Shown here: in pieces, positions 23,936-40,962 of the stretch
Layout of the letters: the number at the start of each line of letters is the position of its first letter
How positions within the stretch are numbered: the stretch's first letter is position 1
Assembly: GCA_012034805.1 (NCBI GenBank)
Contig: JAAUOP010000006.1
Location: forward strand, 1-64,000
Direction of reading: 5' to 3'
DNA: 64,000 nt
Source: Synechococcales cyanobacterium CRU_2_2
Lineage (GTDB): Bacteria; Cyanobacteriota; Cyanobacteriia; PCC-9006; JAAUQQ01
Notes under the pieces: generated by a model
The model's input: the letters and a program-made list of their open reading frames with translations, nothing else
Databases searched by the model: none
What the model was told of the DNA's origin: nothing
Made by a program: the position numbers and the translations under genes

Positions 23936-24053
23936 TTTTCATATTCTCCTGGAGAAGAAGGGCACTGAGCCAGTATTCCCCAGAAGACTTAAAAAGGTCT
24001 GCCAATTCGGCATTTTCTCGGTCTGAGTGGTTGCGAGCTGGCGCGTTTTTGGG

Positions 24054-25568
24054 TTACTGCCCCCGCAAGCGTGACCAAAGTCGAAACACATCCCAACGCG
24101 ATCGCCCCGTGTTCTCCTCATTCCGGCTCCAAAAATCACTCCACCAGCCGGGAGGCTCGTCCTTGGAGCCGTCGTATTCGGTTGGGCGATTCGTGTCGCC
24201 ACTGGTGACGAGGCTGCCCACGTAGTCCCCTTCTGAATAGACTTTGCTGATTTGATCCTGGATGTGCTGCATGTCCTGCTCGGACACAACACCATTGCTG
24301 GTGGCTTTATAGAATTGAACCGTGGCGCGGATTGGGAAACGGGGGTCACGTTCGATTGCCAACTGATCAATCTCCGTAAACGGCCCTTCCACTTCCCCGT
24401 GGCCAATCACCGCGGCTTCGACATCACTGCTTGGGGCTGTGGTCATGGGCGCAGATTGGGGCATGGCTTCTGATAGAACCATGTTGTTACCTAGGGCGGC
24501 GCGGGGTTGCTCTTTTTGTTTGAGGGGTACTTGTATTAGCAAGACCATGTTGAGCCCTTCGGCTTCTGTAGCCTTGGGGGTATCGGCTCCACTGCGATCG
24601 CCCGATGGACTTAAGTCACGATTAAAATCGCTGAGGCGCTGGCCAGTGAGGCTGGTGCGATCGCCATTTTTATTAAAAAACAACCGTTGCCCCCAGGTCA
24701 TCCCTGCCTCAAAGCCATCTCGGGTATTGTCAATCACCGTTACACTCGTTCCCTCGCGTGTCGCCAAAATTGTGAGCACGGCGGGATTCTCTTGATAGGA
24801 CTGGTAGTTGAACAACACCGGATTAAACGTCGCTTCGCCGGTCTTTGGGATGGGCAAAAATGCGGCTTGGGCACTGACTAGGGCATGGCTATCGCGGGGA
24901 GCGAGCAGGGATTTTTGCTGACCTTTCCACGACTTGGGCTCATGCAAATATTTGCGCAGATCGCCCAGCAACTCTCGCACCGAAACCCGCTCGAGTGCTT
25001 TTCCCTTTTCATTGCCGACCAGCACAAAGAATTTATCCAGATCGACATCAGCGGTTTCGTCGGAAAAGTTGGGATGACGGATCACGGGCATGAGACTCAG
25101 GTTGTATTGCCCACTGCTAGGGTCACGCTGCTGCACCTGAATGGTCATGTCACTGATATTTGGCCCCACGGCGGAGTTTTTGTAGCGACCGGTGTCTTCC
25201 CACGTGACGTTGAGAATATTCAGACCGAAGCGTTGGGCGAGGCGTTGGGCGGCGCTGTCGTTGACGAGATTTACCGTTTTTTGGATGACATTGCGGTATT
25301 GCTGCGATCGCTCGGCTCGGCTTGGGTCGGTGGGCACTGGCTCTGCTGGGTCGCTAGAGGTATTGGATTCGGCATTGGGGTCGGCATTGGATTCGGCATT
25401 GGCCCCAGGACTGGCTTCAAGATCATCCTTCGCGCCCTTAGTATCCAGGATTCCCCAGGTTTGTGCGAGGCTTGGAGCTGCGGTGGCTGGGGGGGTGAGG
25501 GCGATCGCCGCACTGGTGATGGCGGTGGCGATCGTCACCAGTAAGCCCAGGGAGAAGGTGGATTTCAT
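24054..25568 (-). CDS. Exported protein of unknown function, 504 residues
   Basis: I do not recognise a named domain. A signal peptide is clear (MKSTFSLGLLVTIATAITSA, then AIALTPPATAAP with an AxA-like cleavage site). A low-complexity linker of Asn-Ala-Glu-Ser/Asp-Pro units encoded by imperfect 15-18 bp repeats (about 25370-25420) follows. The remainder, about residues 70-500, looks like a folded alpha/beta domain with SVRELLGDLRKYLHEPKSWK and VTVIDNTRDGFEAGMTWGQR. The protein is probably periplasmic or thylakoid-lumenal. It may be cotranscribed with the downstream beta-propeller gene. Confidence 0.6.
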   Translation of the reverse strand: MKSTFSLGLLVTIATAITSAAIALTPPATAAPSLAQTWGILDTKGAKDDLEASPGANAESNADPNAESNTSSDPAEPVPTDPSRAERSQQYRNVIQKTVNLVNDSAAQRLAQRFGLNILNVTWEDTGRYKNSAVGPNISDMTIQVQQRDPSSGQYNLSLMPVIRHPNFSDETADVDLDKFFVLVGNEKGKALERVSVRELLGDLRKYLHEPKSWKGQQKSLLAPRDSHALVSAQAAFLPIPKTGEATFNPVLFNYQSYQENPAVLTILATREGTSVTVIDNTRDGFEAGMTWGQRLFFNKNGDRTSLTGQRLSDFNRDLSPSGDRSGADTPKATEAEGLNMVLLIQVPLKQKEQPRAALGNNMVLSEAMPQSAPMTTAPSSDVEAAVIGHGEVEGPFTEIDQLAIERDPRFPIRATVQFYKATSNGVVSEQDMQHIQDQISKVYSEGDYVGSLVTSGDTNRPTEYDGSKDEPPGWWSDFWSRNEENTGRSRWDVFRLWSRLRGQ

Positions 25569-25805
25569 GGTGCGCTAGGATTAGTCTATGGCTGATGGTC
25601 TACGGCCCCACTCTAGAGGGAGTTTGGCAATGCAAAACCTGGGTTTCTATTTTTGAAACAGCGGGCTGTCGTCACCGATCGCTGGGCAGAGTCTCTTTAC
25701 GAAGCACAAAAACTTTGACCAACATGGGTTAGCGCTGCGCTAACCCATCCTAAGACCGAGGTGGAGGCGAGTTATATTAGGGGCAACTGATTAGGGGCAA
25801 CCGTC

Positions 25806-26609
25806 ATGTATCAACCCTTAGGCTACGGGCCGGATGGCCCACTGCCGCCATCACAAACATTGCCGACAATGTACGATTTGCCCAGTGAGTCTGCGGGGGA
25901 GCCAGGATTGCCGGATTTGTTTCACTTGAGCCAGCCGCGTTTGCTGGATGAAACGCTGCTGTCGCCCACCTATCCCGGAGACCAGCGGTTTACAGCAAGC
26001 GATCTTAATCTCTATTACGATGCCCGCCATTCACTCTGGCACAAGCGTCCGGATTGGTTCCTCGTGCTCGGCATTGCACCCGCTTCAAACCAAGCGGAGC
26101 TGCGGCTGAGTTATGTTATGTGGCAGGAAGCCGTGGCACCGTTTTTGGTCGTCGAGTTGTTGTCACCGGGAACGGCGGATGAGGATTTAGGCAAGACATT
26201 GCGGGAGGTGAACCGACCGCCGACGAAATGGCAAGTGTATGAGCAAGTGTTGCGGGTGCCCTATTATGTGGTGTTCGATCGATATGAGTCACAGTTTCGG
26301 TTGTTTGGCATGAGGGGGATGCGGTACGAAGCCATTGAGTTGGTGGGCGAGCGGTTTTGGTTTGAGGAGCTGGATCTGGGCTTGGGGGTTTGGTCTGGGG
26401 TGTATGCGGGAACCGATGGGCGATGGTTGCGGTGGTATGACGCGGCGGGGGATTGGGTTGCAACGCAGGAGGAGCGGGCCGAGTCTGAGCGGGAGCGGGC
26501 CGAGTCGGAGCGGGTGAGGGTCGAACAGGTGATGGCGGAGTTGGCGGTGGAGCGAGAGCGGGCTGAGCGTCTGGCGGCAAGGTTGCGGGAGCTGGGAATT
26601 GAGGAATGA
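25806..26609 (+). CDS. Uma2 family endonuclease-like protein with coiled-coil tail
   Basis: The Uma2 core is present: RPDWFLVLGI, then PFLVVELLSPGTADEDLG, VYEQVLRVPYYVVFDRYES and LRWYDAAGDWV. The C-terminal 50 residues are a regular heptad-like run (ERAESERERAESERVRVEQV) ending LAARLRELGIEE, typical of cyanobacterial Uma2 proteins. The run is encoded by near-identical short repeats at 26480-26530. This is one of four Uma2 genes in the window. The ATG at 25806 starts MYQPLGYGPDGPLPP. Confidence 0.85.
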   Translation: MYQPLGYGPDGPLPPSQTLPTMYDLPSESAGEPGLPDLFHLSQPRLLDETLLSPTYPGDQRFTASDLNLYYDARHSLWHKRPDWFLVLGIAPASNQAELRLSYVMWQEAVAPFLVVELLSPGTADEDLGKTLREVNRPPTKWQVYEQVLRVPYYVVFDRYESQFRLFGMRGMRYEAIELVGERFWFEELDLGLGVWSGVYAGTDGRWLRWYDAAGDWVATQEERAESERERAESERVRVEQVMAELAVERERAERLAARLRELGIEE

Positions 26610-26652
26610 GTGTCTGGACTAGGAAATATTGGTTTCCCCAACAAATTGATCG

Positions 26653-26736
26653 GTAGGGGTTGGCATTTCTGACCTTCAGGGCATTCCTGAAGGGGTGTTG
26701 AGGCGCATCCCAAATTCTGCTTTGGGGGCGGGATTG
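26653..26736. repeat. Dispersed REP-like repeat (copy B) directly upstream of the RAYT gene
   Basis: The block order matches the element at 1795-1875. It contains a perfect hairpin, CCTTCAGG and CCTGAAGG around GCATT, followed by TTGAGGCGCATCCCAAAT. It ends about 16 bp before the transposase start codon. RAYT transposases are normally flanked by the palindromic REP elements they mobilise, so this is a candidate for the cognate element. Confidence 0.6.
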
Positions 26737-26751
26737 CATGAAGAGCGAATC

Positions 26752-27503
26752 ATGCGCAAAATTCGTTCTTTCCTTTCTGGGTATTGTTATCACACAACCG
26801 TTCGGTGTAACAATCGAGATTTTTGTTGACTCGATCCCATTGTCGGGAGGTGTTGCTGTATGCGATCGAACAATGCAAGGCGAAGTATGAGTTTAAGCTT
26901 TATGGCATCTGCATTATGAGTAATCATGTGCATTATTTGATGCAGCCGCTGGTGCCGAAGGAGATGCCGAAGATTATGCATTTCCTCAATTGGTATAGTG
27001 CGATGTGTTTTAACCGGATGTTGAATCGGACGGGCCATTTTTGGGAGAAGCGGTACCATGCGGTGGGTTTTCCGGAAGATGACCAGCGGCGGGCGTTGAA
27101 TACGTTGCGCTATATCCATGCGAATCCGAAGGCGGCGGGGATGCAGCGGGGCTTTTTCTACGATTTCAGCAATTATGGCAGTTATGAGCGGTTGACGCAG
27201 GATGGGTTGACGGAGTGGCATCCGGCCTTCTTGTCAATGGCAGCGACGTTGGAGTTGTGTGCGGCAGCGTATCGGAGGTTTTGTGAGCGGTATCAACCGA
27301 AGCCGAAGTCGGAGCGGAGAAGCCATTGGGGGAGCAAATTGTTGGCGAGGATTGTCGCAGAGCGGCGGGCGAGGCGACGAAAGTACAAAATTAGCCCCGG
27401 ACAAAAATCGCTTTGGGAGGATTGGGATGAACCGTTTGAGGAAATAAAAAATGTTGCCGAAAAATTTAAGGCAGCGAATCAATTTCCTCCCTATCCTAAA
27501 TAA
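26752..27503 (+). CDS. REP-associated tyrosine transposase (RAYT, Y1_Tnp family; frameshifted)
   Basis: This single-strand transposase family has a HUH nuclease core. HVH is seen in GICIMSNHVHYLMQPL, and the family motif LNTLRYIHANPKAAGM follows. The N-terminal piece MRKIRSFLSGYCYHTTVRCN lies in another frame from the ATG at 26752. Restoring one T in the T5 run at 26820-26824 gives NNRDFLLTRSHCREVLLYAI and a product of about 250 residues. The long basic C-terminal tail (GSKLLARIVAERRARRRKY) fits DNA binding. The gene is preceded by a REP-like repeat. It may be active or domesticated; no transposon ends other than the repeat are visible. Confidence 0.88.
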
Positions 27504-27625
27504 AAAAATAACCCAAATTTCTATTTTTTTAAGGAGGTGAAAAAGATTGTTGGTGCCAGGTAAAGAAATGCTGGGAGGCTGATTATGCCGTAGAAATTTG
27601 TTCTTGATAAAAGCTTCAAAAATTC

Positions 27626-29983
27626 CTAGGACTGAGTCGTGCTACAGTTCACAAGTCGCTGCGCGAGAGAAGAGAAGCAATAATCGAAGGTATAAAAATC
27701 GATAAAAATCAATCCCCCCGGATTCGGCCGAGGTAATTCTCCCACCGGAGAAAGAGAGGGTGTCTTTTGGAGGTCTGAGTAGTTCACGTATTTTTTTGCT
27801 TGTTTATTCTGCCAACCTACTTTAACGCAAAAACGATCCCAGTCTTTGCCCAAAGACATTGGACTCCCGCATTCCTGCCAAATCTTTTTTTGGACCGAAA
27901 ACCCAAAATGTCCATTGCTGGCTTCTACCCAAAGGCGATCGATCGTCCGTAAGTCTTCACAGGGAAAATTCTCCAAATCCTCCGGGTCAAACCATTGCCC
28001 TTCTTCCTTATTCACCGTCGTAATCATCAGCCGATAGGTTTCTTTATCCGCTGCTTCCCACTCGCCCGCCTTCAGCAGCCTTTCTAGTTCCCCATAGCGA
28101 GACACTTGCACCTTGGGCTTGAGCGCCTCTAGCTTCTGGACAATAGCCGGATTCAAGGTTCGCTTAGTCTCCTGATAACAAGCATAGGCCAAATTATTCG
28201 CCCCTTGCGCCATCGCCGCCTCGATCAATACCGTCGGATCCTTCGCCTGAGCCGCATAGAGCAAAATGGTCTGCCGCCACCAGGATTGATTCTCCCCGTC
28301 GGCATCCGCATCCTTGAGAAACTCATAGAGCAGAACTTCTTGATCAGTCTCTTTAATTTGCCGAGCGGCCAAAAATTCCTGAAAACTCAAATGAGAAAAC
28401 TCATAGCCCTCCAGCCCTTGGCGCACAATCAACTCACTCACATTCACCACCTGCCGCAAAAATTCCTCAGGTGGAATACCCTCGTGGTTTTGTTCCTGTA
28501 AGGTTCTGCTGAGTAACTCCAGCAAGTCCTCTTCCTCAATCAGCCGTTTTTCCTGCCGCATCATCTCCAGCGCAATCGCTTGCAAGACCAATTGCCGCTC
28601 CTCTGGAGACAGGGGCAAAACAATCCCCCTTGCTGCCGGTCGTTTGCGCAACTGCAACGAACAAATATCCTGATAAAGCTCCACCCGCTGACGGGGCAAC
28701 TCTACCCCCGGATCGCTACGGTGATAGGTCGCCAATAGATTTAGCAGCAGCGGATTTTTCGCCAGATCGGCCAGCTCGGGTCGCTCAGGATTGCGGATTT
28801 GTTCCAGCAGACTCTCTGCATTGCGTCTGGCATCCCGCTGTACCTCCGGGGTGCCTCGACCGGCGCGATCGAGCTTTTCCTGGGACAAATACCACTGATG
28901 CACAAACTGGGTTTGTTGATCCGCCGTGAGCGGCCTGACCCACACCTTCGTGCGCAGGGCATCCACCCGCCCAGAATCCTCAAAAATTTCCCGGTAGGCG
29001 GTGGGCCGAGAGGTCAGAATGAACACCGAACGATCGAACTGGCGCATCTGCTGGGTGATCCATTGGCTAAAAATAATCCGCTCGTTTTCTGGAATTTCAT
29101 CAAATCCATCCATCATCACCAGCACCTTACCCCGCGCTAGCATGTCTCGGAACCAATTTTGGGGCAGCTTGGAGAGGCGATCGCGCTCACTATCAATTTC
29201 CGCCATGACCCGCAAATGCTGCTGCATGAACAGATCCGGCAAACTCAAAGGTGACTCCTGGGCGATGTACTTGCGGTATTGCCGCAGGGGCAAGAGGACC
29301 GGAATTAACCCTGGCACATCATACTTGCGGTATTGCTTGGTGCCATAGATATAGGCCAAATGCTTCAGCAACGTTGTCTTGCCAAACCCACCCCAGGCCA
29401 CGATCGCCAACTGTCGATAGGCCGGATTTCGCTCAGCCTCCGCCAGAAAATCCCAAATGCAGTGATGGCGAAGATCCTCTAGATTCTCTGCCGTCTGTCG
29501 CCTGCGCTGAAACCCAACCGCCACCGCGCTCGAATCTAGCTCCAACGGGACAAACACTTGCTCCAGCATGGGCGTCATGATGCGATCGCGCTTGCCCATT
29601 CCCTCGGATTTATAATCCCGACAATCTAATGCCTGACAGAGCAAATAGGCATCCTCTGCCCGCGAGACCTTGGCAAAAAGCTGGTCAATCCCGCCATCGA
29701 TCGCCTGGTCGATCGCCTCATCAATGCGCTTACCAGTGTTCTCCAAGCGCCGCCGATTGCCTGCATCCACGGGCTTTAGCAAACTGGCTCCGTAGGTGAT
29801 GCCCAAACCGATTCCGGCGGAGGCGATCGCCTGGGGAATATCGCTCTCCTTAAACAATGACCAAAATGCCCCAAACCCTCCTGCCCCGACGCCCCCAGTC
29901 ATCAGCACTTTGGCCAAAATGCCTCCCAGCTTGTCTGGCAACGACTCTGGCTGTGGCGACTGATCGGGCGGAGGATTCGACAT
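27626..29983 (-). CDS. NACHT NTPase fused to a C-terminal GUN4 domain
   Basis: This protein of 785 residues has, in order, two short hydrophobic segments (about 22-45 and 50-68) that could anchor or insert in a membrane, a NACHT-type STAND NTPase (Walker A WGGFGKTTLL at 197-206; Walker B KVLVMMDGFDE at 286-296), helical arms ending in a sequence like other NACHT proteins (YEFSHLSFQEFLAARQI), and a GUN4 domain (about 630-750; GEWEAADKETYRLM, FPCEDLRTIDRLWVEASNGH, FGFSVQKKIW). GUN4 binds porphyrins and activates Mg-chelatase, so the fusion suggests a tetrapyrrole- or light-linked switch. The extreme C-terminus diverges from GUN4. No effector domain is seen. Its downstream neighbour is the RAYT gene, which is convergent. 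Confidence 0.88.
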   Translation of the reverse strand: MSNPPPDQSPQPESLPDKLGGILAKVLMTGGVGAGGFGAFWSLFKESDIPQAIASAGIGLGITYGASLLKPVDAGNRRRLENTGKRIDEAIDQAIDGGIDQLFAKVSRAEDAYLLCQALDCRDYKSEGMGKRDRIMTPMLEQVFVPLELDSSAVAVGFQRRRQTAENLEDLRHHCIWDFLAEAERNPAYRQLAIVAWGGFGKTTLLKHLAYIYGTKQYRKYDVPGLIPVLLPLRQYRKYIAQESPLSLPDLFMQQHLRVMAEIDSERDRLSKLPQNWFRDMLARGKVLVMMDGFDEIPENERIIFSQWITQQMRQFDRSVFILTSRPTAYREIFEDSGRVDALRTKVWVRPLTADQQTQFVHQWYLSQEKLDRAGRGTPEVQRDARRNAESLLEQIRNPERPELADLAKNPLLLNLLATYHRSDPGVELPRQRVELYQDICSLQLRKRPAARGIVLPLSPEERQLVLQAIALEMMRQEKRLIEEEDLLELLSRTLQEQNHEGIPPEEFLRQVVNVSELIVRQGLEGYEFSHLSFQEFLAARQIKETDQEVLLYEFLKDADADGENQSWWRQTILLYAAQAKDPTVLIEAAMAQGANNLAYACYQETKRTLNPAIVQKLEALKPKVQVSRYGELERLLKAGEWEAADKETYRLMITTVNKEEGQWFDPEDLENFPCEDLRTIDRLWVEASNGHFGFSVQKKIWQECGSPMSLGKDWDRFCVKVGWQNKQAKKYVNYSDLQKTPSLSPVGELPRPNPGGLIFIDFYTFDYCFSSLAQRLVNCSTTQS

Positions 29984-30070
29984 CAGACTTCCAGGAGAGA
30001 CAAACTCAGTCAGTCTTATTCTACAAGTCTCACAAACTGGATTTCTGAAAGAGCCACTTGCAAGATTTGC

Positions 30071-30685
30071 CTACAGCCTCGGCATCAAATCCCCCAAGCT
30101 CAGATTCAGCTCAGGCAACAAAGGCGATCGGATTGCCTCCCCCAAGCGATACTGCACCTGGTCATAAAACCGACCCGACAAAACATTAACCGTCAGCGTC
30201 GGCTGCTTCGGGTCTCCAATATAACGAATCCCACCCAACCCACGAAAATCAACAATCCAATATTCAGCAATCCCCATCAGCGCATACTCCTCCACCTTCC
30301 GCGCATAATCATTCTCCCAATTCGTACTCACCACCTCCACCACCAACTTGATCGATTCTCCATAGACAATAATCGGCTCCTGCTGCCAAAGGGGTTCCTG
30401 GGCCAGCGCTCGTTCATCCAACACAATTACATCCGGACGGCGGGCCGTTGCTTCACGGATATTGGGACGGAGAATGCAGGTTTTGGGAATTAGAAACGGC
30501 AGATCCTGGCGATCGATCTCAACACTCAATTTGCTCGCCGTTTTCCCAGCAACCGCCTCATGGGGCCCCGTTGGTTCCATTTCGATCAATTCTCCATCGA
30601 CCAACTCGTACTGTTCATGATCGCCATGCTGAGCAATGAACCGTTCAAAGGTGAGAAGCTGGGCAGGCATGTAAGTCATCGCCAC
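30071..30685 (-). CDS. Uma2 family endonuclease-like protein
   Basis: This 204-residue Uma2 protein without a coiled-coil tail has MPAQLLTFERFIAQHGDHEQ, YELVDGELIEMEPTGPHEAV, RRPDVIVLDE, IKLVVEVVSTNWENDYARKV and EYWIVDFRGLGG in the standard order, with the PD...E-x-V nuclease-like core. The ATG at 30685 gives MAMTYMPA; the second Met is an alternative. It sits between the NACHT-GUN4 and nurA genes, all on the minus strand, with no obvious promoter between. Confidence 0.88.
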   Translation of the reverse strand: MAMTYMPAQLLTFERFIAQHGDHEQYELVDGELIEMEPTGPHEAVAGKTASKLSVEIDRQDLPFLIPKTCILRPNIREATARRPDVIVLDERALAQEPLWQQEPIIVYGESIKLVVEVVSTNWENDYARKVEEYALMGIAEYWIVDFRGLGGIRYIGDPKQPTLTVNVLSGRFYDQVQYRLGEAIRSPLLPELNLSLGDLMPRL

Positions 30686-30750
30686 AACCTTTAGACTGAG
30701 CCTCTAGTTTAGCAATCGCCCCGAAATTCCTGCCTGTGCCGAGGTTAAGT

Positions 30751-31968
30751 CTAGGCAATACTGCCGCGTTTGCGAGCTTCCTTGAACGAGGTGCCGACAT
30801 TGCGCAAACCCGCCTTCACCATTTGTCGCTCTAGCATCGCAAAAAAACGAGCGCGATCGCCCCCCCGCACCACCGCCTGATTGTGCGCCTCCGCCAAAGC
30901 CACCGGATAGCCGTAACCCTTGTGCACCTGGCCCAACACCAAACTCAGCGCCGAACCCAACAACGTCGCATCTTCCCCCACCCAGGCCGGAAACTCCAGC
31001 CGTGCGATCTCTGCGCCCACATGGACATAGCAAAAATAAATCGTTTGTTGTAGACCATACTCCGCCAAAATCTTGGCCGAACTGCGCCACAGCGGCCCCC
31101 GCTCTCCCGGCCGCAGCATCGTAGACCACAGCGTTACATCTCGCAGCGGCGTAAAAACCTGACAGGGTGCGCCATCACCTCGGCCTTCGCAGTGGGTTGC
31201 ACAATCTGGGAAGTCGTAGGGGCAAGATTGCAAGCGCAAAAAATTGAGCGACTCGGTGCTGCGTGAGGCGCTGACATAGCCAACAAATGGCACCCGCAGC
31301 GCCTGCAGCTGCTCCCAGGCTTCGAGAATCGGGGGCAAGATGCGATCGCGCGCCTCCCCCGGCAATCCATCCAAAAACCAGTAAATCAACGAGCCATCGA
31401 CCAGGGCTAAGGTTGGAGCCAGGGTTGAAGCCAGGGTCGCAAGTGAAGCCTGGGGCGGGCTTGAAGCTATCCCCGCCGCCAGTTCTGCCAGCATTTCCAC
31501 CTCGGTAACGGTTCGCCGATAGCCCATCCATTCCTCGGTACCGATGCCCCATTTGCGTGCCCCGTAGAGGTCGTCGGATTGGTAAAAGACCTCGGGCAGG
31601 CTGTCGAGCAACGGTTGGCGGTTTTGACCATAGTGCAAGACGACGCGACCAATGTTGATTAGATAACAGTAGGCAATTTCGTGGTGGCTGGGGGCGATTT
31701 GGGAGCCATCGGTGGCAAGGACGGTGTGCTGGGCAGGTGGGGTTGCGATCGCAACTTTTGTCTCCATTGGCTCCATTGGCTCGGCGGCGGTGAAGCTGAG
31801 GCGATCGCGCCACTCCTGTCCCATCTGCACCAAGATTGCCTGGTGCTGGGCGGCCTGGGTGACCAAATGCTGGGCTCGCTCCAACCTCGTCCGACTCGCC
31901 GCCGCTTCCTGGGCAAGGTGGTTACTAATCCCCTGCATTTGTAGTGCCAACTTAGTCAGATCCAGCAT
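30751..31968 (-). CDS. nurA: NurA-type DNA repair nuclease
   Basis: NurA is a manganese-dependent single-strand endonuclease and 5'-3' exonuclease that, with HerA, resects DNA ends in archaea; cyanobacteria carry a homologue. The catalytic motif VLATDGSQIAPSHHE is near residue 85. LALVDGSLIYWFLDG gives the second acidic site and the C-terminal VHKGYGYPVALAEAHNQAVV is family-typical. Length (405) is normal. Its start overlaps the end of the HAD hydrolase gene by 17 bp, so the two are translationally linked. No herA is in the window. A short low-complexity stretch (Pro-Met-Glu, Leu-Ala-Thr repeats) is encoded by small direct repeats near 31410-31440 and 31770. Confidence 0.9.
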   Translation of the reverse strand: MLDLTKLALQMQGISNHLAQEAAASRTRLERAQHLVTQAAQHQAILVQMGQEWRDRLSFTAAEPMEPMETKVAIATPPAQHTVLATDGSQIAPSHHEIAYCYLINIGRVVLHYGQNRQPLLDSLPEVFYQSDDLYGARKWGIGTEEWMGYRRTVTEVEMLAELAAGIASSPPQASLATLASTLAPTLALVDGSLIYWFLDGLPGEARDRILPPILEAWEQLQALRVPFVGYVSASRSTESLNFLRLQSCPYDFPDCATHCEGRGDGAPCQVFTPLRDVTLWSTMLRPGERGPLWRSSAKILAEYGLQQTIYFCYVHVGAEIARLEFPAWVGEDATLLGSALSLVLGQVHKGYGYPVALAEAHNQAVVRGGDRARFFAMLERQMVKAGLRNVGTSFKEARKRGSIA

Positions 31969-32794
31969 CGCTCACGCCCCGTTCGGGAAATGGCCAACCG
32001 CAGAACGTCTCCAAGTCTAACAGCTCGATCTGTTCATCTGCTGCCGCCGCCTGCCGGTCTGGAGCGACGTTATAGCCCCAATCTGCTAAGAACAAGCGGA
32101 CTTCCTGCAGGTCTGCTTGGACTTGAACGGCTTGCAGCGCTGGCAGGCGGTCTTCGATGAACCAAAGGGAGGGCTGGGCAGCCGCTTGACCTTGGGGGTG
32201 GGAGATGAGATTGCGGTTAAAATTGCCTTGGAGATCGCGCAGGGTTTGATATTTGGGCTGTCGGATTTCCTTACCAATGATTTGCTCCGGCGCAAGCTCG
32301 ACGCCGCCCTGGGCCAGGAGCTGACGGATGAAGCGACCTTCCTTGGTGGAGACGATATACAACTGCGTGGCGCTGCGCTGAACCCGACTGATCAGATCGA
32401 GGACGCCGGGGTAGAAGTGGTGGAGGGCAAGCCAAGCCTCGAGCTGGGTTTGAATTTGGCGATCGCGCTCCCCATCCACCTGGGCCACCAGCTCCTGTGG
32501 CTGTTTCTGGGCTGCCTCCGCAATTTGTCTGACTAAAATCGGCCAGTTTTCCAAAATTTCAGCGTCACCGACACCCTGAACCAGCGCTGCCACCAGCACC
32601 GGCATCTCCCAGCCCGTTTCGATCACGGGGCGAAGCTTGCGAAAGCGATCTTCGAGCCCCATCGGTTCGACGGTTTCATCTTCATCCACGCCCCAACAGC
32701 GCGCGTAGGCCCGCCAAGCTGTCTGCCAGTATTCTCGCAGCCCGTCACAGATGACCCCGTCAAAGTCCAGTACCAAGAGATCCGGTTCAGCCAT
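31952..32794 (-). CDS. HAD-superfamily hydrolase
   Basis: The first HAD motif DLLVLDFDGVICDG opens the protein and supplies the nucleophile Asp. TQLYIVSTKEGRFIRQLL is motif II and SLWFIEDRLPAL gives the acidic motif IV. The cap is helical, as in phosphoglycolate-phosphatase-like members. The ATG at 32794 (MAEPDLLVLDF) is preferred over an upstream in-frame start that adds 21 residues unlike the family. It overlaps nurA by 17 bp, suggesting an operon. The substrate is unknown. Confidence 0.85.
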   Translation of the reverse strand: MAEPDLLVLDFDGVICDGLREYWQTAWRAYARCWGVDEDETVEPMGLEDRFRKLRPVIETGWEMPVLVAALVQGVGDAEILENWPILVRQIAEAAQKQPQELVAQVDGERDRQIQTQLEAWLALHHFYPGVLDLISRVQRSATQLYIVSTKEGRFIRQLLAQGGVELAPEQIIGKEIRQPKYQTLRDLQGNFNRNLISHPQGQAAAQPSLWFIEDRLPALQAVQVQADLQEVRLFLADWGYNVAPDRQAAAADEQIELLDLETFCGWPFPERGVSDAGSD

Positions 32795-33027
32795 GACAAA
32801 AATCCTTGGGAACGAGCTCTCAGAAGCGAGGGTCAAATTAGACCATCCCCACCTCACCAGCCACTAACCAAAACCAACCAAACCTCTTACGGGAGCCAGT
32901 GATTGCTCCAGCGTTGAGCGATCGAACAGTGGGAGCCCTTCCCTAACCCTCAGATGGTTGAGTCCGACTCACCAAAAGTAGGCTCTGTTCGATTTTTACT
33001 TTCGATTTTCACTTCTTAAGCAATTAG

Positions 33028-33099
33028 CTGGGGTGCTAGGATTCGAACCCAGGAATGGCGAGACCAAAACCCGCTGCCTTACCACTTGGCGACACCCCA
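33028..33099 (-). tRNA. trnQ: tRNA-Gln (anticodon UUG)
   Basis: The minus strand folds as a standard cloverleaf of 72 nt. The acceptor stem TGGGGTG pairs with CACCCCA and the discriminator base is G. The D-arm has GCC-AAGTGGTAA-GGC, the anticodon loop TTTTGGT places TTG at positions 34-36, and the T-arm is CTGGG-TTCGAAT-CCTAG. The 3' CCA is not encoded. Confidence 0.95.
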
Positions 33100-33166
33100 T
33101 CGGCGTTTGCCTTTGTAAGGATAGCAGTATTGACCCGGTCTCTGTCAAGGGCTGTGCGCAAAAAAC

Positions 33167-33236
33167 TGTGCCCAACAACCTGTGTCCAACAACCTGTGTC
33201 CAACAACCTGTGTCCAACAACCTGTGCCCAACAACC
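33167..33236. repeat. 14-bp tandem repeat, five copies
   Basis: Five contiguous units of TGTGTCCAACAACC differ at only one position. The array lies upstream of the tRNA-Gln gene and just downstream of the glycosyltransferase stop, so it separates two minus-strand units. It is not a CRISPR: there are no spacers. Confidence 0.95.
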
Positions 33237-33305
33237 TGTCCTCCCCCTGCCCAATAACCTGTCCTTCTCCTACAGGAATCCCACCACCGACGCCGTTGCC
33301 TTTTG

Positions 33306-35606
33306 CTACGCCGAGGCCCGATAGCGCTTCAGGAGGGGGCGCAGCCGCACCACGGTCAGCAAAATGGCCAGCAGCGCATCGAATCCCCCCGGTTTTTTGC
33401 GACGTTTCCACTCGGTCATTTCACCGTAGAGCAGCTGAACGATTTGGCGATGGGACTGCGACGGCAAAGCCTCGGAAAATTGAACCGAGACCCATGTTTG
33501 ACGCCCTTGGCCAAAGACCCGCAACACCTGCCCCGGCAGTTGTAGATTTTCGGCGTGTAGATTTTCGGGGTATGAATTCTCGGGGTATGAACTTTCTGGG
33601 TATGAACTTTCTGGGTATGAACTTTCCGGGTTGAGCCACAGCTCCGCCTCGGCTCCTGGCTGTAGCTCTAGGGGAAATCCGAAGACCGCAGAGGCTCCCC
33701 CTTCCGATAGATCCTGGAGCACGCCTTCATATTCTCGCTCGACCAGCATCTGGTCTGGGCCGGGCTGCTCGCGGATGAGCAAACGACAGGGTCGCTTGAG
33801 GGGGAAGCGATCGAGGCTGCGGCGAATGGGTTGATCGATCGCCGATAAAATCGACGCCCCCATCAGCAGACAGTTATAGCCCAACCAAAAGTAAATCGGA
33901 AATTGGTTGTCCCAAGGCGCGGGCCACAGCCACAGCCACTGGCCCACCAGCTGCACCATCACGCAGCCTAAACTCAAGGCCAACATCAAAATTAGCGGTA
34001 GACTGTGCTCAAAGTTATAGTGCTTGCCGTCCAGCTTGACGCCCTTGCGCGTCACCCGGCTCACCTTGCGAAATGGATTGCCCAGCAACCGCACGAGCCG
34101 ACTGACCGCCGGGAAGCAAAACGTGGTTTCGTAAACATCGTACCAAAATTGAGAAATGCGGTAGTCTGTGGACCAGCCCTGTACGGCAATGCTAAAAAAC
34201 CAAAACGGCGCAAAATAATACAAGATCTCTGCAAGCGTTGCATCCAGCAAAGCCAGATTTCCGTAGATGCACAACAAGGGCGTGATCAATAGAATTAACC
34301 GCAAAAAGGGCTGAATGCAGGCAATAAACTGAGTGACCAAAAAGCTCTTTTGTCCCCAATTGAGCCGCTGAGCTAAGGGCAAGTCTTTCCCGCAAAAATA
34401 GACCTGCCAGTTACCTTGGAGCCAACGCAAACGCTGGTCAATAAAGTCATTATATGTTCGGGTTGATTCTCCCATGCTGAGGATTTCGTTCAGATAGATA
34501 ATTCGCTGGCCATGGGTCAACATTTTGAGCGAGGTTTGATAATCTTCTACGCAGCACTTGATGAAATAGCCGCCGATTTGATCGAGGCTCGATCGCCGTA
34601 CCACGTAAGAGCTACCGCAGCAAATGACACTATTAAAGACATCTCGACAAGATTGAACAGAGCCAAAAAATAACTCGAGGTCATTGGGTAAAAAGTCAGA
34701 TAAGCCAAGATTACGGGCGTGATAATCCGGGTTATAAAAATATTGAGGCGTCTGAACAAGGGAAATTTGACTTTGCTGAAAAAACCGACCGTTCGAATCA
34801 AAAAAATTGCGAAAGGGTACAAAGTCTGCGTCTACGATCGCAACGAGTTCTCCCCCGATTTGGGTCAGCGCATGATTGAGATTGCCTGCCTTCGCATGGT
34901 CATTATTCGGTCGAGTCAGATATTGACAACCGAGCTCTGCGGCCATGGCTCGAATCTGGGGACGTCGCGTATCATCCAGAATATAAATCGTCTTATTGGG
35001 GTAGTCCATTGCCTGACAGCCCATCACCGTTCGCCGCACAATGAAATCAGGCTCGTTGTAGGTGGGCACAAGAACATCAACACTAGGCAAGTAATTGCCG
35101 GAGATAACCGCTTGTTGGTCGCGATCGGCTTGGCGCGATCGCAACTTGTCCGTTGCGAAAATCGTCTGCATCGAGTTCAAAACTGCTGACAAGATACAGA
35201 CACATTCCACCCCAAAGAGCATGAGCCCCAGAGTTTGTTCTAGCGGCGTGGAGAAATCGAGGGTGGAGAGCGATCGCCAGACCAGATAGCGCAGCGCCAA
35301 CACTATCAAAATGGGCCGAAAAATTAACCGCGTCAAGTTATTCGGCGGCAAAAAACGCAGCATCATGGTCGCCAACAGCACCAGTGCCAAGGGCAAAATG
35401 ATCCGCTCTGACCCCATGGGCAGGGCTAGGAAATCGGGCAGCGTATTGGCGATAGAAACCGGAGGACGCTGACGGTAGGCGTCGAGCGGGCCTTGGCTGT
35501 TGAGCCGACTGAGGTAAAACAGCGTACCCGAGACGACGAGACTCAAGCCAAAAAAAGCTTTGACGGGCCAAGCGATCGCCTGCCGCCACAGTCCGAGAAG
35601 ATTCAT
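33306..35606 (-). CDS. Cellulose-synthase-like glycosyltransferase with PilZ domain
   Basis: This GT2-family polysaccharide synthase has several N-terminal membrane helices, the catalytic domain (VDVLVPTYNEP, then IVDADFVPF with the DxD, CCVEDYQTSLKML and QRLRWLQGNW), further helices, and a C-terminal c-di-GMP-binding PilZ domain (RPCRLLIREQ..., VLQDLSEGGASAVF). It should extrude a beta-glucan in response to c-di-GMP. The PilZ domain carries an unusual insertion of six five-residue units (SSYPE-like) encoded by 15-bp repeats. It forms a unit with the HlyD-like gene upstream, the arrangement proposed for cellulose secretion in Thermosynechococcus. The start abuts a 17-bp tandem repeat, so no Shine-Dalgarno sequence is visible. 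Confidence 0.92.
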   Translation of the reverse strand: MNLLGLWRQAIAWPVKAFFGLSLVVSGTLFYLSRLNSQGPLDAYRQRPPVSIANTLPDFLALPMGSERIILPLALVLLATMMLRFLPPNNLTRLIFRPILIVLALRYLVWRSLSTLDFSTPLEQTLGLMLFGVECVCILSAVLNSMQTIFATDKLRSRQADRDQQAVISGNYLPSVDVLVPTYNEPDFIVRRTVMGCQAMDYPNKTIYILDDTRRPQIRAMAAELGCQYLTRPNNDHAKAGNLNHALTQIGGELVAIVDADFVPFRNFFDSNGRFFQQSQISLVQTPQYFYNPDYHARNLGLSDFLPNDLELFFGSVQSCRDVFNSVICCGSSYVVRRSSLDQIGGYFIKCCVEDYQTSLKMLTHGQRIIYLNEILSMGESTRTYNDFIDQRLRWLQGNWQVYFCGKDLPLAQRLNWGQKSFLVTQFIACIQPFLRLILLITPLLCIYGNLALLDATLAEILYYFAPFWFFSIAVQGWSTDYRISQFWYDVYETTFCFPAVSRLVRLLGNPFRKVSRVTRKGVKLDGKHYNFEHSLPLILMLALSLGCVMVQLVGQWLWLWPAPWDNQFPIYFWLGYNCLLMGASILSAIDQPIRRSLDRFPLKRPCRLLIREQPGPDQMLVEREYEGVLQDLSEGGASAVFGFPLELQPGAEAELWLNPESSYPESSYPESSYPENSYPENLHAENLQLPGQVLRVFGQGRQTWVSVQFSEALPSQSHRQIVQLLYGEMTEWKRRKKPGGFDALLAILLTVVRLRPLLKRYRASA
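33541..33630. repeat. 15-bp tandem repeat inside the PilZ domain
   Basis: Six units of TATGAACTTTCTGGG and variants lie head to tail and encode Pro-Glu-Ser-Ser-Tyr repeats on the minus strand, within a surface loop of the PilZ domain. The central copies are identical, which implies recent expansion. Confidence 0.92.
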
Positions 35607-35765
35607 TGCAGTTTAGACAGAAATGCAGTTTAGACAGAAATGCAGTTTGGACGGAAATGCAGTTTGGACGGAAATAAGGTGAAAGGGCTAACGCGAATAA
35701 GGTGAAAGGGCTGAGGTGAGAATTGCGGCGATCGCCCCGTGATAAGCGCCCCGTGATAAGCGCCC
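35607..35765. repeat. Three successive tandem repeat arrays in the leader of the glycosyltransferase gene
   Basis: Four 17-bp units of TGCAGTTTAGACAGAAA start at the base next to the ATG (35607-35674). Two 23-bp units beginning AATAAGGTGAAAGGGCT follow to about 35718, then two and a half 14-bp units of GCCCCGTGATAAGC (35734-35765). The whole 170-bp gap between the HlyD-like and synthase genes is repeat. Confidence 0.9.
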
Positions 35766-35777
35766 CATAACGATCGC

Positions 35778-37093
35778 TTAGGACGCCAAACGGCCCGCCA
35801 TCGTGCGCAAACGACTCCAGAGCTTGCGATCGGCCTGGGGTTCACCCTGGCGCGCAAACGTTACCCGACCCGTGTAGCCGATGTAGCAAAGATTTCCCGA
35901 AGCCACCTTTTGATCCGAAACCAGCGCTGTGGTTGCCTGACCCGGCAATTTTACCCGTACCTGGGTGTGGCGGGGCAGGTTGCGCTGGAGCGGCGTCAGC
36001 ACGTCTTGCCCCGCGACCAACCGGCCCACGCCTCCCCGAATCATGCTGACTTCCCCTTGCAGAACAATATTGTCTGCGCCGTGCAGCTGCACTTCTGCAG
36101 GGGTGCCAATTTGCAGTGAACCCAGGGCATTTTCATCGACCACGGCATCCACCCAGCGCTGTTCGCAGTCCATCATCTGACCGAGGGAATCCCCCTGCTG
36201 AACAAACTGACCCGGCTGGGCCGAGAGATCCCACAGGACGCCATTCACCGGCGCACTAACTTGGGAGAGCTGTTGTTTTTGAATTTCTGCTCGCACCTTG
36301 AGGAACTCTGCCTGGGTATTTTTAAGCGCCTGGCCCAGTAGTAAGACCTGCTGGTGTCCGGCCACAATTTGCAGTTCTAGCTCTTGCTTGCGAATGCTGG
36401 GGTCATAGTTGCTGCGGGTGCGGGTGAGGGTGAGCCCACGACCCACGGCGTTTTGGCTCACTTTCTGGGCCGCAATGCGGTTCTCGAGGCTGTTGACTTC
36501 GCTGGCGCGCTGATCCCGCTCGGATTTGGCAATATCGACATCAATGGACGGGACGGCTCCCTGCTGCTTGAGGGCGGCGAGGCGCTGGTAGTTGAGTTCG
36601 GCGAGTTGCAGGCGCGATCGCCCCCCTGCAATTCCGACTCGAGTTGCTGAATTTGTAGCCCCATTTCGGAGCCTTCGAGGGTGATTTGCTCGCTGGCATC
36701 CTGGCTGACGAAACTGAGCATTTTTTGCTTTTGCAGGAGCTGGGACTGAGCCCCCGTCAGCTCAAACTGCTGTTGCCTGAGGCGGCTCAATAACTCCTGA
36801 CCCTTGACCTCGCTGGCGCGGCTGTTGGTGATGCGAAAAACCGGGGCAGCTTTGCTGATGGCGTCACCGGTACGAAAGACCAGCGGTTCGAGAATGCCAT
36901 CTTCGGGCGCTTTGAGATCGACCAGGGCACCATTGACGACAGCATCGACGCTAATGACAGAAGTCATGCGGGTTTGTAGATACTGATATGACCAATACAA
37001 GAGGCCGATGCCAGCTCCCAGAACGAGCAGATTCGCAAGGGGCGATCGCAGGGAAACAGACTCATTTTCAGCAAGACGATTGCCTAAAACCAT
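35778..37093 (-). CDS. HlyD-family membrane fusion protein (frameshifted)
   Basis: The protein has one N-terminal membrane helix (NLLVLGAGIGLLYWSYQYL), a biotinyl-lipoyl-like half-motif (VNGALVDLKAPEDGILEPLV), a long coiled coil, the second lipoyl half (VSAPVNGVLWDLSAQPGQFV) and a beta-barrel. It would bridge the inner and outer membrane for polymer export, in partnership with the downstream cellulose-synthase-like protein. The two frames join in the coiled coil if one C is restored in the C6 run at 36621-36626 (ELQGGRSRLQLAELNYQRL). The restored length is about 438 residues. The ATG at 37093 is preferred; an in-frame GTG lies 15 bp upstream. Confidence 0.85.
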
Positions 37094-37108
37094 AGGAGAG
37101 AACAACAC

Positions 37109-37593
37109 GGTAGAGCATTATTAAAGGAAGAAAAAAGTCGAAAACACCCAAATCCACTAGCCTAGTCCAGATCTATCTCCGTTGACTTCACTCGAAGACA
37201 GTCTTATGCAAGACTTGTACAACCCCACTGTTATTTATAGCGTCATACGGCTCTTTTTTGAGTTATATATCTTACTTTTTCTACGAGCGGCAAATATAAG
37301 AATCTACCGGGAGCTTGCTTTGATGAGATCCGGCTCTCATTTTTCGCAGGATCGATGAGCGCTTTGTCTGGCAAAGCATAAAGATTTGATGAAGAGCTTT
37401 CCATCTCCCCCAAAATATGGGTTTGAAGGGCTGTAGAGAAACGACTCAGCTCTAGATCGTATGGGTATAAAATAATTAAGCTGCAATGCGGTTGCTGCTT
37501 GGCTTTAAGTTAGCTACTGGAGCAACTGCTTGCTCCAGTTTCGGTCTGAGCATTTGGCATTGCCGATTATTGCTGATTGATGGGATGTTTGCC
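37109..37593. other. Intergenic region upstream of the HlyD-like gene
   Basis: This A+T-rich stretch holds the HlyD-like promoter region on the minus strand. At 37500-37560 there is an imperfect dyad, GCTACTGGAGCAACTGC-TTGCTCCAG. No gene is visible. Confidence 0.45.
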
Positions 37594-37617
37594 GTAGGAA
37601 CGAACCGCTGTTCGTCC
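37594..37617. repeat. Dispersed hairpin repeat, GGGACGAAC family (copy 1)
   Basis: GTAGGAACGAACCGCT-GTTCGTCC forms a short hairpin. Related copies are at 53786-53834 and 55212-55234. The recognisable cas4-like coding sequence begins immediately to its right, so insertion of this element may mark the left breakpoint of the relic. Confidence 0.65.
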
Positions 37618-37980
37618 AGCTTTTGCAAAGCCTTGAGCGCCTCACGGGTCAAACGGATCTGATCGAAGCGCTCGATGGTCGCTGGTGTCCGACGGAATAC
37701 AAGCAGGGAAAACGGAGTGAGTTTGAATTTGAAAGTGAATTTGACAACAATGTAATGATGCGATGCAAGTTTGTGCCCAGGATCTTTGCTTGGAAGAGAT
37801 GCTAAGACAACTGATTGCCCTCGGCTATGTCTATGCCCAGCCCCATCGGTGCCAGTCCGTGGAAATTCCGAATGTGCAGAGTGCGCTGAATGTAGAGTGC
37901 GCTGAATATTGCCGGGTTTGATCCGGACTGGGGCGATTTGCATACGGTGCGCTACGGTCGGTCTTGGCTGGCGCTAGAAC
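37618..37980 (+). pseudogene. Relic of a cas4-cas1 CRISPR adaptation gene
   Basis: Three fragments in different frames match the family order. LTGQTDLIEALDGRWCPTEY followed by KQGKRSE is the Cas4 RecB-like core, with D...E-x-K. NDAMQVCAQDLCLEEMLRQL then IALGYVYAQPHR is the next Cas4 helix and Cys region. IAGFDPDWGDLHTVRYGRSW then LALEL is the C-terminal end of Cas1. About 280 codons between the Cas4 tail and the Cas1 tail are missing, and no CRISPR array or other cas gene is in the window. The order Cas4 then Cas1 suggests the parent was a fused gene. It is non-functional. Confidence 0.7.
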
Positions 37981-37982
37981 TG

Positions 37983-38084
37983 CACTTTCCGCAACAACAC
38001 TTTCCGCAACAGCACTTCCCGCAACAGCACTTCCCGCAACACTTCCCGCAACAGCACTTTCCGCAACAGCACTTTCCGTAACAA
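37983..38084. repeat. 15-bp tandem repeat, about seven copies
   Basis: Units of CACTTTCCGCAACAG, with one unit shortened to 12 bp, extend the Cas1-like reading frame as His-Phe-Pro-Gln-Gln repeats until a stop. The array lies between the cas relic and ccmK3. There are no spacers, so this is not a CRISPR array. Confidence 0.95.
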
Positions 38085-38207
38085 CGCAACCTCTGCGATT
38101 TACAATGGCCCTTGAGCGTAAGCTCCGAACACAAAGCTAGAATGGCTTCGCAAGCTTGCGGAGAAATCGCCACCCCAATCCCCCCACCCACGTTCAACCC
38201 CATCCCC

Positions 38208-38516
38208 ATGTCCGAAGCCGCCGTTGGAATGATCCAAATTGACGGGTTCCCCGGAACCCTCGCCGCTGCCGATGCCATGCTCAAAGCCGCGCGGGTCACG
38301 CTCGTACAATTTGACCTCGCCGAGCGCGCCAACTTTTACCTCGTGATTCGTGGCCCCAACTCTGAAGTGCAACGGGCCATGCCCGCAGGCATCAAAGCCG
38401 CTGAAGACGTCAAGGCCGAGGTCGTCAATTATTACATCGTGCCGAATCCTCCTGACAACATCGTCGATGTCTTAACCCTTGGCTTCAGCGACGCCTCCTT
38501 ACCCTTTCGGTCTTAA
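38208..38516 (+). CDS. ccmK3: Carboxysome shell protein CcmK3-type (BMC domain)
   Basis: This 102-residue single-BMC-domain hexamer subunit belongs to the beta-carboxysome shell. MIQIDGFPGTLAAADAMLKA is the standard N-terminus. The pore region reads VQFDLAERANFYLVIRG in place of the usual GYxRxGS, and the tail has NYYIVPNPPDNIVDVL, as in CcmK3. The ATG at 38208 is chosen because BMC proteins begin about eight residues before the IxxxGFP motif; upstream in-frame codons read through repeat-flanking sequence. ccmK4 follows after 92 bp, the usual satellite location away from the main ccm operon. Confidence 0.9.
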   Translation: MSEAAVGMIQIDGFPGTLAAADAMLKAARVTLVQFDLAERANFYLVIRGPNSEVQRAMPAGIKAAEDVKAEVVNYYIVPNPPDNIVDVLTLGFSDASLPFRS

Positions 38517-38608: not shown

Positions 38609-38956
38609 ATGTCGATTGAGGCTGTCGGTTCCCTAGAGACAAAAGGCTTTCCGCCCATGCTGGCGGCGGCGGATGCCATGGTCAAAGCAGGCCGGATAAC
38701 CGTGGTGGGTTATCTCCGCGCCGGGAGTGCGCGTTTCACGGTGAATATTCGGGGCGCGGTGTCTGAAGTCAAGACGGCGATGGAAGCGGGCCGGGCAGCA
38801 GCTGAGAATACACCGGGCGGCACCCTGGAAACCTGGGTGATTATTCCCCGTCCCCACGAGAATGTTGAGGCCGTTTTGCCCATTGCCTATAGTCCTGAAT
38901 CTGAACCCTATCGGGTGTCTCCGGGCAGTAGTAATCGTTTGCCTGCCGCTTCTTAA
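38609..38956 (+). CDS. ccmK4: Carboxysome shell protein CcmK4 (BMC domain)
   Basis: This 115-residue BMC-domain shell protein has VGSLETKGFPPMLAAADAMV, VVGYLRAGSARFTVNIRGAV with the pore residues, and the C-terminal WVIIPRPHENVEAVLPIAYS that characterises CcmK4. A good ribosome binding site (AGGAG) precedes the ATG at 38609. It pairs with the adjacent ccmK3; CcmK3 and CcmK4 are known to form mixed hexamers that tune shell permeability. The DUF1823 gene follows 23 bp later and is probably cotranscribed. Confidence 0.95.
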   Translation: MSIEAVGSLETKGFPPMLAAADAMVKAGRITVVGYLRAGSARFTVNIRGAVSEVKTAMEAGRAAAENTPGGTLETWVIIPRPHENVEAVLPIAYSPESEPYRVSPGSSNRLPAAS

Positions 38957-38979: not shown

Positions 38980-39393
38980 ATGGTTGAATTGCCGTCGATT
39001 ACCATACAGACCGTTTGGGCGGTTCTCAATGATGAGGTAGATGATGCCACAGCCAATGCCTTGGTGTGGCAGGTGTTGGGCTATCGTTGGGTCGGCGATC
39101 GCCCCCAGGACGATCGCTGGAATAATCGCTGGAACACCGAAGCCGTCGCCCCAGACTGGCGCGACGCCTATCCAGAGCCTCCCAACTTCATTGAGAGCCG
39201 TCCGGCAACGGTCAAGCTGACGCGATCGATTCCACCGTCAGACAAACAATTGCTCAAGGAACAGCTTCAGTTTCAGGGCTACAAAATCGGTGAGTTGACG
39301 CCGCGCAAGACCCGCCGAGCCACGATCGCCAACTATCTGCTCAGTTATTTGAATCAGCTCAATCTCAACTCGCCAGAGGCAACCGAGTCATAG
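38980..39393 (+). CDS. DUF1823 family protein
   Basis: This is a 137-residue soluble protein of a family found in cyanobacteria and plants, function unknown. It has TVWAVLNDEVDDATANALVW, LGYRW, DWRDAYPEPPNFIESRPATV and the strongly conserved YKIGELTPRKTRRATIANYL. A short insertion (DRPQDDRWNNRWNTEA) sits after the LGYRW block. It follows ccmK4 by 23 bp, so a link to carboxysome function is possible but is only inferred from position. Its stop overlaps the end of the convergent kinase-like gene by 6 bp. Confidence 0.85.
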   Translation: MVELPSITIQTVWAVLNDEVDDATANALVWQVLGYRWVGDRPQDDRWNNRWNTEAVAPDWRDAYPEPPNFIESRPATVKLTRSIPPSDKQLLKEQLQFQGYKIGELTPRKTRRATIANYLLSYLNQLNLNSPEATES

Positions 39394-40583
39394 CTGGAGC
39401 TCGCGCTCCAGGGCTTCCGTATGCATCGGCATGGGGAGCCTGACCGTGACGCAGGTGCCCTCGGAGGTGCTGACGAGAGTGATATTACCGCCGTGCAGTT
39501 CGGTGCAGGTTTTGGCGATCGCCAGCCCCAGCCCAGCCCCAGTTTTGATCTTGGCATTCTCTGCTCGAAAGAATGGTTTGAACACATGATCTTGGTCGGC
39601 AGCGGGAATGCCCATGCCCTGATCTTGAATCAAAAACGTTGCCTCGGTTTTGTCGTAGGTGAGCACGAAGTCAACCTGGGTTTCGGGCAGGGAGTAGGTC
39701 AGCGCATTGACAAGCAAATTGCGGAGGATCGATCGCAAGAGCTTGGGATCGCCCTGGACAGAAATCGCCTCAGGTAGAAGTTTGCAAGTGATCCGGCAGG
39801 GTATGGCTTCGACAGAGAGCTCGGTCGAATCGTTTGCCGGCATACTTGCCACCAAATCCGTTACGAACTGGTTCAGATTGAGAACAACAGGCTCGAACTG
39901 GAGTAATCCCGTTTCCGATTGCCCCACCAAATCAGCGCATCATTGAGCAACGAAGTCATCAGTTTGACCGATTCGCGAATGCGCTTGAGGTGGCGATGGA
40001 TGCGCGCTTTGCTCCAGCCATCCCCGTAGTGTTCGATCAGTTCGTTGGATGACAAGATGACCGTCAGCGGTGTCCGATAGGCTCGAGAGAGCAGAGGCAA
40101 GAGCTGGGATTGTAGCGAGGCCAAAGGGTCAGCTGGGGGATGGGCCAAATCTGGGACTAGCTCGGTGATCCGGGGCTCGGAGGTATTTGGAGGTTTAGGC
40201 TCCGATCGCGTTGGACTCGAGGATCCAGATGCTCTTGCTTGGGCCAGTTGAGCCTTAACCTCTTCGAGTTCCTGGCGCTGGCCGACGATGAGCAACACTG
40301 CGAAATAGGCCAGTGCACCGAGCATGGGTGCAGTGAAGGCAAAACACAACAGAAAGCGATCGCGCATCAATTCCGTCACTGCCGCTTGATCCCCCTGGGG
40401 GAGGCGATCGCCGACAAAGTGGTAGAGCTGCGCCAGAAACAAGGCCCAAGCGATCGCCCCCACCGAGCTACTGATGAGCCAAAGCCGCAGCCGCAGCCGA
40501 GCCGATTGTTTTGCCGATGAACTGGCCGATGGACTGGCCGATGAACTGATCGGGTCAGATGGCTGATTTACAAACACGAACAC
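39388..40583 (-). CDS. Histidine-kinase-like protein lacking the phosphoacceptor His (frameshifted)
   Basis: Two membrane helices (LWLISSSVGAIAWALFLAQL and FAFTAPMLGALAYFAVLLIV) and a short coiled coil precede a HisKA-like dimerisation region. There the conserved SHEFRTPL reads SRAYRTPLTVILSSNELIEH, so Arg (CGA) replaces the His. The HATPase domain looks intact: N box LRNLLVNALTYS, G1 DQGMGIP, F box FKPFFRAEN, G2 TGAGLGLAIAK. The two frames join if one T (minus strand) is restored at the A3 run 39929-39931 (LNDALILVGQSETGLLQF). The GTG at 40583 is preceded by GAGG and gives about 398 residues; a longer ORF to 40808 has an atypical N-terminus. It may be a pseudokinase or ATP-dependent regulator. 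Confidence 0.8.
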
Positions 40584-40962
40584 GAGCCTCAGATTAATCA
40601 GCAAAAATGAACCAGACCCCTGCAACCCCCAAATCCTTCGAACAAACTCTGAACCACTCGGCGGAAGATTGCTCCCAACACACCTGAGTTTCTGGGGGCG
40701 GCTCAGAACCGAAATTTTTTCATGGCAAAATTTAGTCCATGACAGTATAAGGGGCAAAAGGGTCTTGCCGTTACCTGGGCAGAAATCCTCAACCTCGAAA
40801 CATCTCATCGATATCTCATCGATATCTCACCGACGCATTGGATTGAAGCGCACTAGAATGGAGTGGAGTTAGCAGATAACTCGCCAAATTTTGCTCGTCC
40901 GTTGCTCGTCCAGAGCCCGTTAATTTCTCCCACTCCCGTTCGACACCAGGATCTTTTGACCT

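Follow-up and report, generated by a model that had tools for sequence, protein, structure and literature searches.

A probable remnant of a type I-D cas4-cas1 gene pair upstream of ccmK3 in a Synechococcales cyanobacterium

Organization of the locus

The window analysed here is the whole 64,000-nucleotide stretch at the start of contig JAAUOP010000006.1 of Synechococcales cyanobacterium CRU_2_2. Within it, a Cas4 fragment followed by a Cas1 fragment, on a single strand and in cas4-cas1 order (37642-37985, plus strand), lies between a polysaccharide operon and the genes for two shell proteins. The sister-genus metagenome-assembled genome (MAG) RM1_1_8 (G002) and a genome of the same genus (G001) serve as the main comparisons. 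The features of the region are:

33306-35606, minus strand: GT2/PilZ BcsA-type polysaccharide synthase (Pfam), left neighbour
35778-37108, minus strand: HlyD-like secretion gene, left neighbour upstream of the synthase, in two frames with an apparent single-base frameshift
37565-37641, plus strand: truncated MITE-like element, about 77 of about 103 bp (own-genome search)
37642-37870, plus strand: remnant of a type I-D cas4 (about codons 73-141), aligned to positions 9093-9313 of the RM1_1_8 locus L028 (tblastn, NCBIfam)
37871-37985, plus strand: remnant of a type I-D cas1 (about codons 222-253), aligned to positions 10182-10266 of L028 (tblastn, NCBIfam)
37978-38083, plus strand: 15-bp tandem array (AACAGCACTTTCCGC), 7.3 copies (TRF)
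38078-38106, plus strand: putative ccmK3 promoter, GTAACA - 17 bp - TACAAT (pattern scan, in which about one such site is expected by chance)
38208-38516, plus strand: ccmK3, BMC-domain shell protein (Pfam BMC, E=9.8e-21)
38609-38956, plus strand: ccmK4, BMC-domain shell protein (Pfam BMC, E=1.5e-22)

The left neighbours are collinear with contig C256 of G001 as far as 37116, where collinearity stops. The synthase is 81% identical in G001, and the HlyD-like gene, named from sequence character and context with no curated model passed, has there a continuous homologue of 458 aa in one intact ORF. From 38208 onward, the right neighbours (ccmK3, ccmK4, a DUF1823 gene, a histidine kinase and Der) are collinear with G001 contig C301. 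The remnant is therefore placed at a synteny breakpoint relative to G001, as it also is relative to G002. The approximately 445 bp from the HlyD-like gene to the MITE-like element (37116-37561) had no match in the relatives searched.

The original prediction held that this site, adjacent to carboxysome genes, formerly contained a CRISPR adaptation module. Relatives of ccmK3 (76%, 70% and 58% identical) provide no backing for a lasting association: ccmK3 is preceded by Dus in G001 and, in G002, by an Opp-type ABC transporter, and none of the 45 loci recovered by a CcmK3 search, which include distant BMC proteins and loci ending close to the gene, contains type I-D cas genes. A conserved cas-ccmK3 neighbourhood was accordingly rejected. 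Because the region upstream of ccmK3 differs among relatives and none of those loci carries type I-D cas genes, the adjacency to carboxysome genes is probably incidental, with no evident functional message. For beta-cyanobacteria, a published account describes ccmK shell genes relocated to satellite loci (PMC5853843).

An apparent histidine kinase at 39388-40808 is also read in two frames; this and the two-frame HlyD-like gene reflect either sequencing errors or real decay. An antisense ORF at 37476-37943 (minus strand) has no Pfam match and crosses the MITE-like element, and we judged it spurious.

Identification of the Cas4 and Cas1 fragments

The peptides quoted in the original prediction are present within 37594-38084, and both sets of fragments match Cas4 and Cas1 models. 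The Cas4 piece corresponds to positions 66-103 of the NCBIfam model NF049935 (E=0.0048) and the Cas1 piece to positions 428-451 (E=0.0038), each scoring below the curated cut-off when taken singly. Joined, they match NF049935 with E=2.4e-8 and the cas4 model TIGR00372 with E=5e-4. A blind NF049935 search of the entire 5.3-Mb genome recovered both stretches independently. In tblastn searches of the 64-kb window, the Cas4 and Cas1 proteins of RM1_1_8 matched with E=9.5e-15 and E=5.5e-8, respectively, and these two queries revealed no other type I-D cas trace in the window at E<0.1.

The sub-threshold scores of the single pieces are what could be said for a chance resemblance. Against it stand the occurrence of two ordered pieces on one strand, homology at the DNA level and a shuffle control: the real scores of 52.4 and 46.2 bits were reached by none of 1000 dinucleotide shuffles of 37594-38084, for which the maximum was 25 bits. 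In the DNA alignment to RM1_1_8, 154 of 220 columns are identical in cas4 with 30 gaps (approximately 81% of aligned bases), as are 71 of 85 bases (84%) in cas1. On these grounds we rejected chance, which has a negligible probability; profile, tblastn, alignment and shuffle results agree in placing the two fragments here in the order originally proposed.

Anatomy of the remnant

The reading frames are not intact, owing to truncations, frame breaks and an internal deletion. The cas4 remnant contains a 26-bp insertion that is a local tandem duplication (approximately 37727-37752), together with other small indels. At the junction 37870/37871, the sequence lacks about 861 bp that RM1_1_8 has, from the last part of cas4 across the intergenic gap through codon 221 of cas1. 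This amounts to 287 codons, and the earlier estimate of about 280 was thus about right. The Cas1 piece starts at 37871 (VQSALN), earlier than first described; at the junction it carries the 18-bp and 16-bp copies of a tandem duplication (37871-37888 and 37889-37904), and it retains the motif string DVQSALN...GFDP...LHTVRYGR...LAL.

Affinity to type I-D gene pairs

The fragments are best matched by two genes of a type I-D locus in RM1_1_8 (contig C98), cas4 and cas1, which are adjacent but separate. The order of this locus is cas3', Cas10d/Csc3, Cas7/Csc2, Cas5/Csc1, Cas6, Cas4, Cas1 and Cas2; downstream of Cas2 an array starts with a repeat-spacer-repeat unit whose repeat is GTCGCAATTTTGGTGAATCCCTTCTAGGGATTGAAAC. 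Its Cas10d matches the corresponding model with E=1.1e-278, and the best curated model for its Cas1 is Cas1d. The composition agrees with published type I-D gene content (PMC10212523).

The remnant shares with this pair its order and strand, its nucleotide identity over aligned bases, and the motifs GxxDLIE...EYK of Cas4 and GFDP..G.LHT.RYGR.SLAL of Cas1. It differs in being reduced to about 69 + 32 codons joined by deletion in a broken frame, and in having no cas2, array or effector. The fragments match all type I-D pairs sampled (E from 1e-5 to 1e-12), and all the other loci that they match carry a Cas1 passing TIGR04093 (Cas1d). Among subtypes their affinity is closest to type I-D, with significance reached only against TIGR04093-passing loci. 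The nearest relatives of the remnant are separate type I-D cas4 and cas1 genes, whose proteins have 61-80% identity to those of RM1_1_8, the closest of them.

The original prediction envisaged a single cas4-cas1 gene, which would correspond to a fusion of type I-G or I-MYXAN. This could be entertained since both pieces have NF049935 (Cas4g/Cas1g) as their highest-ranking curated model, but that model matches unfused Cas4 and Cas1 genes from other subtypes as well. Fused Cas4-Cas1 genes, including the one that the genome itself encodes on contig C93, gave no match to the fragments better than chance, and true fusions have only about 30% protein identity to the type I-D proteins of RM1_1_8. The C93 fusion belongs to the same protein superfamilies as the remnant but to another lineage, with identities to type I-D proteins of about 30% for Cas4 and 43% for the C-terminal half of Cas1. 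We consequently rejected a fusion as the origin, a reading that is very improbable. Because the fragments match TIGR04093 loci and fused genes give no significant match, sequence similarity identifies an ordinary type I-D cas4-cas1 gene pair as the source.

Other CRISPR-Cas genes in the genome

We looked for an intact copy and arrays elsewhere in the assembly, which is 89% complete. Genome-wide searches for Cas10d and Csc2 found neither, and there was no array with the RM1_1_8 type I-D repeat. Four sites match the end of that repeat with one mismatch, three of them single sites and one a short tandem repeat with a 14-bp unit. Type I-D effectors are thus likely absent from the genome, with the reservation that an intact type I-D locus could sit in the missing part of the assembly.

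The remaining CRISPR-Cas locus is of type I-MYXAN, is unrelated to the remnant, and is located on C93 (L027, positions 18000-37500), where it encodes Cas6, Cas3, Cas8a1/Cmx1, Cas7, Cas5, Cas4-Cas1 and Cas2. The Cas4-Cas1 fusion is split within cas1 by an apparent single-base frameshift, the model match of Cas7 ends early, and a TnpB-like gene adjoins cas2.

The edges of the remnant

The left edge had been described as a dispersed hairpin repeat. It is dispersed, but rather than a plain repeat it is a truncated MITE-like element cut where cas4 begins (37641/37642); it retains the terminal inverted repeat on the left and the central hairpin but has lost the right end. A search of the genome returned 40 matches at E<=1e-3, and the genome contains approximately 30 or more copies or partial copies. 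Full copies, eight of which (one enlarged) occur in the loci retrieved, are 102-105 bp long and bear 14-bp terminal inverted repeats (GGCGTTGCTGATT / AATTCAGCAACGCC). The label MITE-like rests on the short length, multiple copies, terminal inverted repeats and lack of coding capacity of the family. Repeats were also proposed to have grown at this edge; what is found instead is a mobile element cut at the breakpoint. Examples of the family are found in L062, L065, L071-L073, L077 and L080, and copy L065 has an internal tandem triplication; some copies also occur in G001 and G002.

At the right edge, the 15-bp tandem array is real, as TRF confirms, but its growth on an edge of the cas genes is doubtful. 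The first, -35-like hexamer of the putative ccmK3 promoter falls within the last array unit, and the segment ending in TACAAT is shared with the sequences upstream of ccmK3 in both G001 and G002. G001 has its own short repeat array at the same spot with no cas piece, so that the conserved promoter-like segment borders an array in a cas-free relative as well. Because of this overlap and the repeats in G001, the array more likely arose by local slippage close to the promoter than as a scar of the cas deletion. That the remnant and array have been retained as an upstream regulatory region of ccmK3, with the last unit supplying the -35-like hexamer, is highly unlikely; if it were so, array copy number could tune shell-protein expression. 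Short tandem arrays with units of 11-18 bp are frequent across the window (59 TRF rows), and some are in frame inside genes, e.g. 33563-33631 in the synthase.

Origin and decay of the remnant

We consider it very probable that 37642-37985 is a degraded remnant of a type I-D cas4-cas1 gene pair shaped by at least three events. The proposal that an adaptation pair was cut down by deletions is supported by the breakpoints mapped in the DNA alignment. A loss on the left, with its breakpoint inside both the MITE-like element and cas4, would have removed everything upstream of about cas4 codon 73. An internal deletion of about 861 bp would have fused cas4 at about codon 141 to cas1 at about codon 222. 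A loss on the right would have taken everything past about cas1 codon 253 (the rest of cas1, cas2 and the array) up to the ccmK3 promoter region, where the 15-bp array now lies. Small tandem duplications and indels would additionally have broken the frame, and replication slippage may have produced both these duplications and the array. The order of the events is one that we infer; neutral decay, once the type I-D effector genes had been lost or left behind, is the most likely account of the whole.

Nearby conserved genes such as the HlyD-like gene likewise contain single-base frameshifts, which might be sequencing errors, but the large deletions, the truncation of the MITE-like element and the tandem duplications are not explicable in this way. 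Given that the frame is broken, the start of Cas1 is deleted and about 100 codons are left, the remnant shows no sign of function and is most likely a neutral pseudogene fossil.

A finer question inside this explanation is whether the pair decayed where it now lies, which we addressed by comparing three genomes that differ strongly. Erosion in place of a full type I-D locus once situated between the polysaccharide operon and ccmK3 has a chance that we put slightly short of even. The cas4 and cas1 fragments are still ordered, and the break on the left falls inside a MITE-like element; against this, the window holds no further type I-D trace, the 37116-37561 segment is unmatched, and the genes upstream of ccmK3 in relatives differ and have no type I-D cas nearby. 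It is also quite conceivable, if we would not favour it, that the piece broke elsewhere and was brought here by rearrangement between dispersed repeats; it could, then, have arrived already broken. The synteny breakpoint relative to both G001 and G002 is in keeping with such transport, as are the position of the junction within a many-copy dispersed element and the presence of another copy approximately 330 bp upstream of Dus, which is the neighbour of ccmK3 in G001 but not here. On the other hand, no reciprocal junction was found: past the repeat on the Dus side (beyond C205:18051), the sequence has no match to the region upstream of the HlyD-like gene in G001, which leaves a reciprocal exchange between MITE copies near Dus and the polysaccharide operon unsupported.

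The genes cas4 and cas1 added new memories to the CRISPR immune system, and loss and decay of CRISPR-Cas loci are common. Like other cas pseudogenes and degraded loci, the remnant consists of core genes that are truncated and frameshifted, the other parts of the system being absent, and apart from the position of its left break within a MITE-like element it does not differ from them in principle. Our literature searches returned no description of this cas4-cas1 remnant. As a genetic fossil it is ordinary, and nothing points to retained activity. It illustrates the reduction of such genes in a genome with many MITE-like elements and short tandem repeats, although the gain in knowledge is small because such loss and decay are common.

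Third-position identity to G002 is 69% in the cas pieces and 47% in ccmK3 plus ccmK4 (Fisher p=0.0015; p=0.20 at fourfold sites alone), a comparison in which the cas pieces are few and were picked for similarity. This hints that the cas genes may have been shared with G002 more recently than ccmK3 and ccmK4, via transfer, and we make no claim to that effect. In the Dus region of the genome (C205:16718-18051, L069), Dus has an apparent frame break, and a 16-bp tandem array and a MITE copy follow it.
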